The position numbers and the translations under genes were made by a program. A stretch of 39,944 bases of DNA, taken from Desulfobacterales bacterium (GTDB taxonomy: Bacteria; Desulfobacterota; Desulfobacteria; Desulfobacterales; SKZT01). Shown here piece by piece: positions 31,345-37,209 of the stretch. Numbering within the stretch: the first letter of the stretch is position 1; each line of letters opens with the position of its first letter. Under the pieces are notes generated by a model, which was given only the letters and a program-made list of their open reading frames with translations, was not told the origin of the DNA and ran no database searches. The DNA lies in contig JAGYNR010000010.1 of the NCBI GenBank assembly GCA_018399715.1, positions 1 through 39,944 on the forward strand, in the 5' to 3' direction.

Positions 31345-33285
31345 TTACCAGGGATTGAATGCTTTTACCTGTTTGCAGAAATGTTTTACCATAGAGGTAT
31401 CATGGCTTTTTTGGTATCGAAGCTGGACATAAAGCCGGATAATTTCGTATACATCAGGCTTTAAATCCGGTCGTTTTTGGGCGATGTAACCGGCAAAATC
31501 TACCGGTCCCTGATTCGATAACCGTGGATGCCCGATTTTTTTTAGTTTTTTGCAAAACTTTTCGTAACATATCTGAACCCGATCCTTTTTTGTGGCTGGG
31601 GCTCTGAGTTGAAAAAATACATATAGCCCCACTGTCAGAAAAATTGTCCCACAAATCAGTGAGAAAACAGTTAACAATCCTTTCAATGATTTCATCCGGA
31701 TTCCCAGACGCTCTATCAGCGCTCTTTGCTCCAGGTATGAATACCCGCTGAACCATGCCTCCCAACTGGTACTAACGGCATCCCAGCCAAAGCGCAATTG
31801 TTTGAACCATTTTACAAACAGACTGCCGGAAAATTCTTTTGTCAGTGTTTCGGAAGTTCCCCCTGTAATTCGTTTCGGCGCTACCGCATAAGTTGGATCC
31901 ACCCGCATCCATCCACTGACTTCGCTCCAGACCTCAACCCACACATGGGCATCTGACTGCCGGACAATCAGATAATTTCCAAATGGATTTACTTCACCGC
32001 CAAGATAGCCGCCTACAATCCGGGCCGGTACTCCTGCCGCCCTCATGAGAAAGGCAAATGCTGATGCGTAGTGTTCACAATACCCTTTTTTGGATCGAAA
32101 CAAAAAATCATCTATGGGGTTTCTGTTTAGCAACGGCGGCTCCAGGGTATATACAAATCCGTTGGTCTTCAGATAGAAAATTGTCTGGTTTATGAGTTGC
32201 TCAACAGAATCCGCGTTACCGGCGAGATCTCCGGCTAGTTTTCGTGATTTGGGGTTGCCCTTTGCCGGAAGCTGCTGTGCCGGGGCAATATCCCATAGCC
32301 GGCCCTTATAAGGCTGAAGATAAGAGGTGATGCAGTAATATTTTTTCCGGTTTACCGGACGCAGATGCCGAAGGGTATAGTCCATATACATACGGCTCCA
32401 TTTCGGCGTTGATGCCGGCCTGTCCAGCGTAAACAGCCATCGCTTGCCATGAGGTTCCAAAGCAATGGTGTAAGTCACGGGGCTTTGTCCTGTCGGAAAA
32501 TACCGGATACCCGGAATCCGGTTTGATCGATGCCAGCTTCTGCCATCAAACTCGTGAAAAACAATTCCCCGCCAGTATAAGTGGTTGGCTCCCGGAATAT
32601 TTTTTTCAAATTCTGCACGAAATACAATATCGTTATTTTTTACCAGCCGGGAGATATTGCCGGGACTGAGTCGCTCCGAAAAACCCGTTGTTGCATCCGG
32701 CATGCCTGAAAGGCCGAAGATACTGCCCTGAATCCGGGGAAACAGTATAAACAAAACGGCCATCAAGGGTATTGCCTGGGCCATAATGATACCGGATAGC
32801 CGAAGCCCCGATTTAAAGGTTGCCGTTGTATCATTTATTAGAATCAATGCTCCTGTGGTGACAAATACAGATAGGAACATATAAATCGTAATGAACAGGG
32901 ATTCGGATTGAAACAGGCTGGTGATCACGATGAAATACGCCAGAAAAAGAGAAATCATCCGGTCCCGGTGTGTGCTGATTTCAAAGGGCTTGAGCGCCGC
33001 CATGATGGAAAGAAGGCCCAGGTAAGCGTTTGGGCCTATTCGCATACCGTATGTTATCAGTAAACCGAAAATGCCGAAAACAGAGAATAAAATGAGAACC
33101 GCACGGTTTGGGCGAGGCCATTGAAACCGCAAAGAAAACAAAAGATATCCCCACATTGCCGCACACCATATAATGATCCATAGCGGTAATCTGCCCAGAT
33201 GCGGCAAAATGGCGATGATGATGGCAAAAATAATGTGTGGAAGATATTTATCCTGATCCCTCACCGATAATTCAATCCTCAGCAT
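31345..33285 (-). CDS. TgpA-type transglutaminase membrane protein (DUF3488)
   Basis: 646 aa. The N-terminal membrane domain has about six helices within 1-190. A periplasmic transglutaminase-like domain has an intact triad: Cys403 in KKGYCEHYASAFAFLMRAAGVPAR, His447 in SDAHVWVEVW and Asp463 in RVDPTYA. One more transmembrane helix (about 545-570) precedes a cytoplasmic C-terminal DUF4129-like tail. P. aeruginosa TgpA has this layout and is essential there; the substrate is not settled. The start overlaps the DUF58 gene by 14 bases, and with moxR this forms the common MoxR-DUF58-transglutaminase cluster. Confidence 0.92.
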   Translation of the reverse strand: MLRIELSVRDQDKYLPHIIFAIIIAILPHLGRLPLWIIIWCAAMWGYLLFSLRFQWPRPNRAVLILFSVFGIFGLLITYGMRIGPNAYLGLLSIMAALKPFEISTHRDRMISLFLAYFIVITSLFQSESLFITIYMFLSVFVTTGALILINDTTATFKSGLRLSGIIMAQAIPLMAVLFILFPRIQGSIFGLSGMPDATTGFSERLSPGNISRLVKNNDIVFRAEFEKNIPGANHLYWRGIVFHEFDGRSWHRSNRIPGIRYFPTGQSPVTYTIALEPHGKRWLFTLDRPASTPKWSRMYMDYTLRHLRPVNRKKYYCITSYLQPYKGRLWDIAPAQQLPAKGNPKSRKLAGDLAGNADSVEQLINQTIFYLKTNGFVYTLEPPLLNRNPIDDFLFRSKKGYCEHYASAFAFLMRAAGVPARIVGGYLGGEVNPFGNYLIVRQSDAHVWVEVWSEVSGWMRVDPTYAVAPKRITGGTSETLTKEFSGSLFVKWFKQLRFGWDAVSTSWEAWFSGYSYLEQRALIERLGIRMKSLKGLLTVFSLICGTIFLTVGLYVFFQLRAPATKKDRVQICYEKFCKKLKKIGHPRLSNQGPVDFAGYIAQKRPDLKPDVYEIIRLYVQLRYQKSHDTSMVKHFCKQVKAFNPW

Positions 33286-34204
33286 CTGACAAGGCCAGTG
33301 TTTTCAAGCAATTATGTCTGTGCCGGTGCCCTTTATCCGGCTGCAGATATTTCCCCGGAAGCTTTAAGCCGTAAGCTATTTTCATGCGATCGGCCTGGAT
33401 GACCATATCCGTAAGCCTGGATATTTTTTTTTCCTTGTCGTCGGCCCGAACCATTGTATAGTCTACTATCACTGAGCGGCTGATCTCATTGGCGAACTGC
33501 TTTGTAAAAAGCCCCTGGCATCGGCCAAGGGATTTCCAGGCGATATGTTGAATGGCATCCCCCGGGCGATATTGTCTGAGTCCCTTGAAATCATCCACAC
33601 CCGCCGTTTGGATTTCTTTTTTTCCACTATTGGTTCCGACACCATCTGCCAAATGAAGCGGCCCGGGAATTGGTTTCGGATAAACCACGACAGAAGTTTC
33701 TATATTCAGTTTTGACCAGGCTCGAAACAGTCCGATGGGAAAACGTGTAAAAATGGTCAGCTTTCCGGGTAAATGAAGTCCGCGTCGCTTGGTTTTTGCT
33801 GTTACTTTCACCGTTGTCGGGTTTTTGGCAAAGACCGTTTCAAAACAGTGTGCCTCTTTTTTAAATGCGAATCCAATACTGTTTCGCTGCAATGTATCTG
33901 AGCGGGTCACCACATCAAAGACAGCAGTTTCTCCGGCAAACACCGGTGATGCCGTTACCGATAAAATATTTAGCCCTAAAAGATTTCGCCAGGTATAAAT
34001 GATTGAAACAAGGGCCATGCTTCCCAAAAGAAATACGAGAAGAAATCCAAGATTATTGTTGTAATTAATCGAGCCAATCAGCATACCAAGTAAAACCAGT
34101 AGAAACAATATCCCGTAAACGGTGGGAAAAATATATATCCGGTTCCGGGTTAACCGGATTGGGAGCGATACATCCTGTGGAGCAAACCAAAAACGTTTCT
34201 TCAA
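33272..34204 (-). CDS. DUF58 protein of a MoxR cluster
   Basis: 310 aa from a TTG at 34204 that overlaps the moxR stop (TTGA). The open frame extends to 34360, but that part lies antisense to nothing and inside moxR in another frame, with a composition unlike a protein domain, so it is rejected. Two transmembrane helices (about 25-70: YIFPTVYGILFLLVLLG and a second) precede a cytoplasmic domain with the DUF58 signature GVDDFKGLRQYRPGDAIQHIAWKSLGR, followed by a VWA-like end. The family is thought to be a substrate or partner of MoxR ATPases. Expected to act with the flanking genes. Confidence 0.88.
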   Translation of the reverse strand: MKKRFWFAPQDVSLPIRLTRNRIYIFPTVYGILFLLVLLGMLIGSINYNNNLGFLLVFLLGSMALVSIIYTWRNLLGLNILSVTASPVFAGETAVFDVVTRSDTLQRNSIGFAFKKEAHCFETVFAKNPTTVKVTAKTKRRGLHLPGKLTIFTRFPIGLFRAWSKLNIETSVVVYPKPIPGPLHLADGVGTNSGKKEIQTAGVDDFKGLRQYRPGDAIQHIAWKSLGRCQGLFTKQFANEISRSVIVDYTMVRADDKEKKISRLTDMVIQADRMKIAYGLKLPGKYLQPDKGHRHRHNCLKTLALSDAED

Positions 34205-35118
34205 ACCGGTACCGAAATTTCTTTGAATATATCCATCAGTTTGGAGCGGGGAATCTCGGTTCTGTCCTGACGGGTATGCAACCGATGGCTGGTTACCCAC
34301 GGAAGAACCCTCTGAAGATCTTCCGGAATGGTATAATCTCTTCCTTGTAGATATGCCCATGATCGGGCTGCCCTGGAAAGTGAAAGGCCGGCTCTCGGAG
34401 ACAGTCCCACATGGAAATAGGGAGACGTACGGGTAAAATGAAGGATATCCTGCAGATAATCCAGAAAGGCATCTGATGTGTGCACATGGGTAATTTGTTC
34501 CTGGATGCTTAAAACATCATCTTTTGATATGCAAGGGGACATATTTTTAATCGTGATCCGGGCATCCTCACCTTTTAGAATCATTTTTTCCGCTTTACGA
34601 TCCGGATATCCGATTTCAATGCGCATCAGAAACCGGTCCATCTGAGATTCCGGCAAGGGAAAAGTTCCGGCATATTCAATCGGGTTTTGCGTGGCAATCA
34701 CGAAAAAAGGCTGGTTTAATTGCCGGGTTTGTCTCTCAATGGTGACCTGCTCCTCCTCCATGGCTTCAAGCAGAGCGCTTTGGGTTTTGGGATTGGCACG
34801 ATTGATTTCATCCACCAAAAGCACCCGGGTAAATATCGGTCCCGGATGAAAGTGAAATTTGCCGGTGTTCTGATCGAAAACAGAAACGCCGATAATATCA
34901 CCGGGCAGCATATCGCTGGTGCATTGTATCCGCTGAAAGTCAAGGCCAAGACATTTGGCAAGCACCTTGGCCAGTGTGGTTTTGCCGATACCCGGCAGGT
35001 CTTCTATTAACAGATGACCTCCGGCAAACAGGCAGGTAAGCGCCAGTCGTACATGGGCATTTTTACCCCGCACGACACTGCTGATTTGCTGAACAATATG
35101 TTCAAATGCTTCATTCAT
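34201..35118 (-). CDS. moxR: MoxR-family AAA+ ATPase
   Basis: 305 aa, normal length. Walker A LPGIGKTTLA (about 41-50), Walker B LLVDEINRANPKTQSALLEAMEE (Asp103-Glu104), sensor 1 ATQNPIEYAGTFPLPESQMDRFLMR, and a C-terminal lid with SPRAGLSLSRAARSWA carrying sensor 2. MoxR proteins act as chaperone-like ATPases on VWA or DUF58 partners. Here the DUF58 gene follows with a stop-start overlap, and the Sec-containing peroxiredoxin-like gene precedes by 33 bases. No good Shine-Dalgarno is seen, so translation may depend on the upstream gene. Confidence 0.93.
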   Translation of the reverse strand: MNEAFEHIVQQISSVVRGKNAHVRLALTCLFAGGHLLIEDLPGIGKTTLAKVLAKCLGLDFQRIQCTSDMLPGDIIGVSVFDQNTGKFHFHPGPIFTRVLLVDEINRANPKTQSALLEAMEEEQVTIERQTRQLNQPFFVIATQNPIEYAGTFPLPESQMDRFLMRIEIGYPDRKAEKMILKGEDARITIKNMSPCISKDDVLSIQEQITHVHTSDAFLDYLQDILHFTRTSPYFHVGLSPRAGLSLSRAARSWAYLQGRDYTIPEDLQRVLPWVTSHRLHTRQDRTEIPRSKLMDIFKEISVPV

Positions 35119-35151: not shown

Positions 35152-35694
35152 TTATTTTAAACCATCTTTTTTTAATGCCAGCAGACTATCAACGGATGGA
35201 TTATCGGAGGGGTCTTTTGAATAGTAGGCATATCGGATATCACCGGCAGTGTCGATTAAAAAGACACCGGACATCTGCATCACATTATCTTTGGATATAC
35301 CGGGCATATGACCCTTTGCCAGTGTTTTTAACCCGTTCAACCATAAGGATGGTGAGGCCAATGCAGCAACGGAAACTTTTTTGAGTCCATATGCGTGATA
35401 CAGGATTTTTTCAGGATCGCAGATGATAGGAAGTGACGGAGAAAATTGTTTTCTAAATGCTTCTGCTTCATCAGGATTTCCCAGCCCCACCAGTATGATT
35501 TGAAAACCAGCGGATTCAAACTGTGGTTTAAAACGATGCAACTGCACCGTCAGCTCGCGGGCAAACGGTCACCCAAAATGTCGGAGAAAAACAAGAAACA
35601 TCGGCTCCTTTATCCATAAATTGCTGAGACGGTGTACGGCCCGGTCGGAAAATATTACCTCGGCATCCGGTGCTTTTTGATAGGGTTCTAACAT
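35152..35694 (-). CDS. Selenoprotein: AhpC/TSA-like peroxiredoxin with in-frame TGA (Sec42)
   Basis: 180 residues if TGA (complement of 35569-35571) is read as selenocysteine. The ATG at 35694 follows AAGGAAAAAT. Read through, the protein runs MLEPYQKAPD..., then FLVFLRHFG-Sec-PFARE, then ILVGLGNPDEAEAFRKQF, PIICDPEKILYHAYGLKKVS and SGVFLIDTAGDIRYAYYSKD: a complete thioredoxin-fold AhpC-TSA_2/Prx-like2 protein with Sec exactly where relatives have catalytic Cys (FLRHFGCxFCRE). The +3 Cys of relatives is Ala45; Cys92 is the only Cys. A SECIS-like hairpin follows the TGA. Without recoding only a 131-aa fragment from a GTG at 35547, lacking the catalytic site, would be called. moxR follows 33 bases later. 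Confidence 0.87.
35533..35550 (-). promoter_or_regulatory. Bacterial SECIS-like hairpin
   Basis: On the minus strand ACGGTGC pairs with GCATCGT (seven pairs, one G-U) around the loop AGTT. The loop begins 24 bases after the TGA and has G at its second position. This fits the published bacterial SECIS description: an apical loop with an early G, roughly 16-37 bases after UGA. Confidence 0.75.
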
Positions 35695-35747: not shown

Positions 35748-35777
35748 ACTATATCTTGTAACTATAATTATTGTCAA
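35748..35777 (-). promoter_or_regulatory. Promoter for the selenoprotein-moxR operon
   Basis: On the minus strand TTGACA (35777-35772), 18-base spacer, TATAGT (35753-35748). Five of six -10 bases match. It lies in the 138-base divergent region and gives a leader of about 45 bases. Confidence 0.55.
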
Positions 35778-35832
35778 CCAATGAAGGAAATGCTAATTTT
35801 TTTACAAAACTAAAATGAATTATAAGGAAAAA

Positions 35833-37209
35833 ATGATGAAATCGTATGATGTGATTGTGATTGGTTCCGGAACGGCAGGACAAACAGTTGCTTATGAATT
35901 GAATAAACAGGGATTATCCGTAGCAGTTGCAGAAAAAAGCGACCGGCCGGGTGGGGTATGCGCTCTTTCGGGTTGCCAGGCCAAAAAATGGTTTTATGAG
36001 GGAGCGGAAATTATTGCCAAATCCCATCATTTAAAAGGTAAGGGCATCCGTAGTGCCCCTCTTGCCAATTGGTCTGAATTTTTGTCGGCTAAAAATGCGT
36101 TTACAGCAGCGGTACCGGGCAATACGATAGATGGTTTCGATAAGGCAAGCATCGACTTTATAGCCGGTACGGCCCGTTTTACAGCTAAAGACACCATCAC
36201 CATAAATGATTCCCGGTTAACCGCGCGGTTTTTTGTGATTGCCACTGGTGCTTATCCCATGCCCCTGCCTGTCCAGGGAGCTGAGCATATGATTACCAGT
36301 TGGCAGTTTTTGGATCTGCCATCTCTTCCTGCCAGGTTTGTTTTTATCGGAGGAGGATTCATTTCTTTTGAATTTGCGCATTTTGTTGCCCGCTTAGGGG
36401 ATATGCCCAACCGGCAGACAACTATCCTGGAAGCTTCTTCCCGGCCGCTGGGTCCGTTTGATGCCGAAATGGTCTCTTTATTGGTGGCGGCATCTATGGC
36501 CGACGGGATTGATATTCAATCCGATGTCAAGGTGACCGGCATTCAATCCGAAAAAAATGGATTTCGGGTGATAACCGATAAGACCGATTACATGGCGGAC
36601 ATGGTTGTCCACGGCGCAGGCCGCATTCCAAGCATTGACGATTTAAACCTGGATATTGCAGGAGTGGATTATTCCAAAAAAGGGATCACAGTGAATTCCC
36701 GAATGCAGACAACCAATCCGAAAATTTATGCAGTGGGCGATTGTGCCGCCACCATTCAGTTGGCCCGGGTAGCCGACCATGAAGCCATGGCGGCCGCAGG
36801 CGACATTGCCGGAAACAATAGTGACTGGAAAGATATGGATTATACGGCGGTTCCGTTTGTTTTGTTTTCGTATCCCCAGTACGCCATGGTGGGCAAAACC
36901 GAACAGTCTCTTGTGGATGAAGGGGTCCCGTTTACAAAAAGTTTTGGTAAAAATCTTCGTTGGCCGACGTATCGGCGGGTTGGGATGGAACATGCCGCAT
37001 ACAAGCTTTTGGTTGACAAGGATGGATATTTTCTCGGTGCCCATATTCTGTCGGATAATGCCACCGGGCTGATTAATACCATCCGCATGGCGATGCTAAA
37101 CCGGATCACCGCAGATACCTTGTATCGCCAGCATATTATGTCGCCGTATCCATCGAGGGAAAGTGATCTCATCTATATGTTGAAGAGCATCCTGATAGAT
37201 CATCATTAG
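35833..37209 (+). CDS. FAD/NAD(P) disulfide-oxidoreductase-like protein
   Basis: 458 aa from the ATG at 35833, which has AAGGAAAA upstream; an ATG at 35815 would add six residues. FAD Rossmann motif VIVIGSGTAGQTVAYE (7-22), redox-active CxxxxC in PGGVCALSGCQAKKW (Cys43, Cys48), ATGAYPMPLP, NAD(P) motif FIGGGFISFEFA, and the second FAD motif KIYAVGDCAA. This is the pyridine nucleotide-disulfide reductase class I fold. The C-terminus reads HIMSPYPSRESDLIYMLKS where lipoamide and glutathione reductases have the active-site HPTxxE, so the catalytic His-Glu pair is not conserved. The electron acceptor is unknown. It is divergent from the selenoprotein gene, which makes that protein a possible partner. 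Confidence 0.87.
   Translation: MMKSYDVIVIGSGTAGQTVAYELNKQGLSVAVAEKSDRPGGVCALSGCQAKKWFYEGAEIIAKSHHLKGKGIRSAPLANWSEFLSAKNAFTAAVPGNTIDGFDKASIDFIAGTARFTAKDTITINDSRLTARFFVIATGAYPMPLPVQGAEHMITSWQFLDLPSLPARFVFIGGGFISFEFAHFVARLGDMPNRQTTILEASSRPLGPFDAEMVSLLVAASMADGIDIQSDVKVTGIQSEKNGFRVITDKTDYMADMVVHGAGRIPSIDDLNLDIAGVDYSKKGITVNSRMQTTNPKIYAVGDCAATIQLARVADHEAMAAAGDIAGNNSDWKDMDYTAVPFVLFSYPQYAMVGKTEQSLVDEGVPFTKSFGKNLRWPTYRRVGMEHAAYKLLVDKDGYFLGAHILSDNATGLINTIRMAMLNRITADTLYRQHIMSPYPSRESDLIYMLKSILIDHH

Follow-up and report, generated by a model that had tools for sequence, protein, structure and literature searches.

Canonical peroxiredoxins carry the active-site motif PxxxTxxC, and SelL is characterized by a UxxU motif with a diselenide. 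SelL has been described as a Prx-like selenoprotein (PMC2398784), and an AhpC/TSA_2 selenoprotein (pfam13911, cd02970) with a UxxS motif appears in published lists (PMC9312934, PMC13188914), UxxS accessions being CAB1081847.1 and MDX2448127.1; the term UxxA is absent from PMC13188914. Searching the literature for the name 'SelL-related redox protein' yielded no paper. Selenocysteine (Sec) in AhpC-TSA_2 proteins is thus already known, and the locus described here adds an uncommon active-site variant, UxxA, rather than a new kind of system. It lies in a window of 39,944 nucleotides, the whole stretch of DNA that was analysed, from a MAG of the order Desulfobacterales (2.58 Mb, 243 contigs, 77% complete), and its central features are the following:

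35152-35694, minus strand: predicted selenoprotein gene, SelL-related/AhpC-TSA_2, motif U42-P-F-A45; 180 codons plus TAA, with Pfam and NCBIfam matches and with purifying selection before and after the TGA.
35569-35571, minus strand: in-frame TGA, predicted Sec codon 42; in the alignment, 55 other loci have TGA here and 54 have TGC/TGT.
35560-35562, minus strand: codon 45, GCC (Ala), the adjacent resolving position; relatives in the clade have TGC/TGT (Cys).

Compared with SelL proper, the name-giving relative of the NF040769 family model, the window protein has the Prx-like fold in common but not the UxxU motif: it features U42-P-F-A45 with one TGA. With the published UxxS protein it shares the Pfam domain, the single Sec and the lack of an adjacent resolving Cys, the motif being UxxA instead of UxxS. 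The PxxxTxxC motif of canonical peroxiredoxins is missing (LRHFGU instead); because of this, we term the protein peroxiredoxin-like, and peroxidase activity is not assured. A histidine, H39, is conserved at -3 of the Sec. In the AF2 model (mean pLDDT 86.7), residue 42 sits directly before helix 43-54, and the best solved fold matches include Bcp4, PRXL2B and AhpE. Human prostamide/prostaglandin F synthase PRXL2B (PDB 9usa) is alike in fold (TM 0.74, rmsd 2.3) and holds its catalytic residue in a shared FGC/U-xx-C/A context, but it has a C44-C47 pair where the window protein has Sec and Ala, and identity is 19%. AhpE, a 1-Cys peroxiredoxin of Mycobacterium tuberculosis (PDB 1xxu; TM 0.69), uses one catalytic chalcogen and external resolution, like that proposed for the window protein, although with Cys rather than Sec.

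Translated from 35694 to 35152 on the minus strand with TGA read as U, the frame yields a protein of 180 residues whose only U is at position 42 (...FLVFLRHFGUPFARE...), and it ends in TAA, in agreement with the initial annotation, which had described a TGA interrupting a continuous 180-codon frame. ORF calling with table 11 returns only a GTG-started fragment of 131 aa (35547-35152). The full product scores 64.5 bits against Pfam AhpC-TSA_2 (PF13911; gathering score 27) and 147.1 bits against NCBIfam NF040769 'SelL-related redox protein' (curated cut-off 120); the latter model is also passed by the Sec-containing relatives L042, L046 and L064 and the Cys-containing relatives L076 and L068, and the window protein differs from this family in having Ala, not Cys, three residues after the catalytic one. 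While a single-sequence scan of genome contigs confirmed no relative, an alignment query retrieved 493, the named ones mostly from Desulfobacterales. A homologue was found in 60 of 194 related genomes, most with exactly one TGA, and named Desulfobacterales, Desulfobulbaceae, Nitrospirota and other phyla supplied additional ones. The relatives keep the peptide that precedes the TGA, and many carry the TGA themselves; a lack of such conservation had been named as evidence against a selenoprotein. Across 110 aligned loci, some of which are one gene from two collections (e.g. L042/L122, L012/L044), the Sec column holds TGA in 56 and TGC/TGT in 54 and nothing else, confirming that the TGA occupies the position of the catalytic Cys in this AhpC/TSA-like family, as had been proposed. 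Among the close relatives with estimable dS, to which these figures are limited, dN/dS is about 0.14-0.32 upstream of the TGA and about 0.20-0.24 downstream, and purifying selection thus acts on both parts of the frame.

How would a UGA in this position be read as Sec? A putative recoding signal follows the codon:

35533-35550, minus strand: predicted bacterial SECIS stem-loop with 7 pairs, an AGUU loop and 25 nt from UGA to loop; based on covariation, folding and published bSECIS constraints.

The hairpin (ACGGTGC-AGTT-GCATCGT) starts exactly 21 bases past the first base of the TGA, where the initial annotation had placed it. A published bSECIS model asks for a loop of 3-9 nt, a stem of 4-16 bp, a G in the first two loop positions, a distance of 16-37 nt from the UGA and an MFE <= -7.5 (PMC13188914); the AGUU loop, 7 pairs, G in second position, 25 nt and -9.7 kcal/mol of the window hairpin lie within all of these limits. 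Folding of the 20-nt stem-loop core, a check suggested at the outset, gave this energy with z = -4.46, and none of 200 shuffles was as good; longer stretches around the TGA folded only weakly better than shuffles (z -1.1 to -1.7), and their energy was discarded as evidence. When the protein is kept and its codons are redrawn at random according to local usage, 7 pairs in the same register arise in only 0.3% of the synonymous recodings. In the window's clade, the hairpin is kept by compensatory changes around an invariant GCAGTTGC, and it is absent in Cys homologues. The codons for Gln51-Leu52, which form the loop, are CAG TTG in 43/43 Sec loci of the clade, while Cys homologues have mixed codons there. 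In 32 distinct sequences of the clade, 91.1% of stem cells are paired, both partners vary in four of the seven stem pairs, and covariation scores 0.402, compared with 0.249 in shuffles (0/500) and <=0.171 in slid controls. Since shuffles take no account of relatedness, a better yardstick is provided by the slid controls and by the Cys homologues: at least three continuous pairs from the loop are found in 32/32 Sec but only 6/54 Cys sequences. The outer pair is A-U in the window and G-C in its nearest relatives, a private compensatory change. The reading of the hairpin as a SECIS element is therefore supported by covariation. A more distant Sec clade uses another hairpin, GGCAGC-AGGUC-GCUGCC in L031, closer to the TGA; as it differs in both sequence and placement, the family has two hairpin solutions. 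On the side of distribution, the Nitrospirota Sec members (among L046-L050, L052, L054 and L073) group with the window's clade, and L073, from one Actinomycetota MAG, shares the TGA and the GCAGTTGC hairpin, which points to horizontal transfer or mis-binning.

The MAG also encodes machinery for Sec insertion. It contains a tRNA-Sec (78.7 bits, anticodon TCA), selB (383.6 bits) and selA (604.9 bits); the absence of selA, selB or selC had been named as one observation that would refute Sec decoding. The best match to selD in this 77% complete genome reaches 73 bits, below the cut-off of 125. selD is present in both genomes of the same family and in 9 of 10 other relatives searched, the listed copies themselves having an in-frame TGA, and the simplest reading of the missing match is a gap in an incomplete assembly. 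A search for other Sec families in the MAG found two formate dehydrogenase alpha subunits (FdhA; L140, L141) whose usual Sec site holds an in-frame TGA (CARLUH and CARTUH), FlpD matches without TGA, and no CobW-related or SelW match.

Less can be drawn from the surroundings of the gene. Genes for a MoxR ATPase, a DUF58 protein and a TgpA-type transglutaminase lie downstream on the same strand (31345-35118, minus strand), and since they begin 33 bp past the stop codon, they may be co-transcribed with the selenoprotein gene; this pairing was not seen in relatives. On the other side, a divergent gene for a pyridine nucleotide-disulfide oxidoreductase, whose active site is of the CxxxxC type (GGVCALSGC), adjoins (35815-37209, plus strand), making its product a candidate reductant. 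Neither MoxR nor the oxidoreductase is adjacent in the other loci, where flanks of about 1.5-3 kb were compared, and we rejected both as functional partners; no conserved neighbour in these flanks points to a substrate or reductant. Upstream of the gene, one further feature was considered:

35748-35777, minus strand: promoter-like TTGACA-18-TATAGT; sigma-70 consensus match only, at 11/12 positions, and not above chance for the region.

The initial annotation had credited the gene with a good Shine-Dalgarno sequence and promoter. A Shine-Dalgarno-like AAAAGGAAA is indeed found 5' of the ATG, but promoter-like matches in the region are no more numerous than in shuffles, leaving the promoter as a consensus match.

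Could the TGA simply be a Cys codon that was mutated or misread, so that the gene yields a truncated product or none? A table 11 reading does end at codon 42, and near the motif the window protein is more diverged than its relatives. Against this stand the presence of TGA at this codon in 55 further, independently assembled loci, the selection on both sides of it, the SECIS retained with its private compensatory change, and the Sec machinery in the MAG. We consider a pseudogene or sequencing error extremely improbable. The original proposal of Sec at this site is upheld by the tRNA-Sec, selA and selB genes, the TGA-bearing relatives and the SECIS covariation, and the gene almost certainly encodes a genuine selenoprotein, as judged from sequence. 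The identity of residue 45 calls for separate weighing. The +3 residue is Cys in 44, Ala in 11 and Ser in 1 of the 56 Sec loci, and all 54 Cys homologues are CxxC. In a maximum-likelihood tree with U masked, the window protein falls inside a UxxC clade (support 96/89), its sister group being Desulfobacterales UPFC proteins of about 66% identity, with Nitrospirota outside; its Ala45 is hence derived in the window lineage. This agrees with the early remark that Ala replaces the second Cys, a state seen here in a single MAG, and no closer relative with Ala45 was found among 389 genomes of the order or 395 of the phylum. Alternatively, Ala45 could have arisen as an artefact of sequencing or assembly, in which case the protein would share UxxC with its relatives: Cys stands at this position throughout the rest of the clade, only one MAG shows Ala, and TTTGCCCGC in the window versus TTTTGCCGC in relatives resembles two neighbouring differences in homopolymer length. 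However, it is unlikely that two errors a few bases apart would cancel out exactly, the frame is intact, the neighbouring residues have diverged as well (RELTVQ versus REQAVQ in relatives), and other branches of the family acquired UxxA on their own, at least three changes being required on the tree. We regard an artefact as improbable.

Our explanation as a whole, which we hold to be likely, is that of a Sec-decoded SelL-related redox protein with a nucleophilic Sec42 and probably external resolution. UGA codon 42 would be decoded as Sec by tRNA-Sec and SelB via the hairpin 21 nt from the UGA, giving a SelL-related (AhpC-TSA_2, PRXL2-like) protein of peroxiredoxin/thioredoxin fold. From family and fold, the product is likely a thiol peroxidase or oxidoreductase, in which Sec42, placed where the active-site helix begins, would be the nucleophile acting on a peroxide or disulfide. 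As the window lineage lost the +3 Cys, an external thiol becomes a probable agent for resolving the oxidised selenium in a 1-Cys-like cycle, a step to which we give about even weight. Would C92, the sole Cys of the protein, resolve it instead in an atypical Sec-Cys (selenylsulfide) two-residue cycle? It lies at the end of model strand 90-92 and is kept in the nearest relatives, but it is present in only 26/56 Sec and 14/54 Cys homologues, and there are UxxA relatives devoid of Cys outside the Sec column; such a cycle seems rather unlikely. The second Sec clade, L028-L040 from Desulfobacterales, is mostly UxxA, its differently placed hairpin having loops such as AGGUC or AGG, and several members (L030, L031, L033, L034 and L037) are free of Cys outside the Sec column. 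A fully intermolecular one-Sec cycle is therefore plausible in the SelL-related family.

Taken further, the adjacent resolving Cys might have been lost repeatedly in SelL-related selenoproteins, giving rise to low- or no-Cys one-Sec UxxA enzymes that would depend on a thiol or selenol from outside for their regeneration; in the window protein, the loss would then be a recent one within the UxxC clade. We put this forward tentatively. Standard annotation would cut the gene to a 131-aa fragment without its active site, and the same in-frame TGA is carried by dozens of relatives. With CxxC, UxxC, UxxA and UxxS, nature provides a series within one family on which both the benefit of selenium in a thiol enzyme and the conditions under which a resolving Cys can be spared could be tested.
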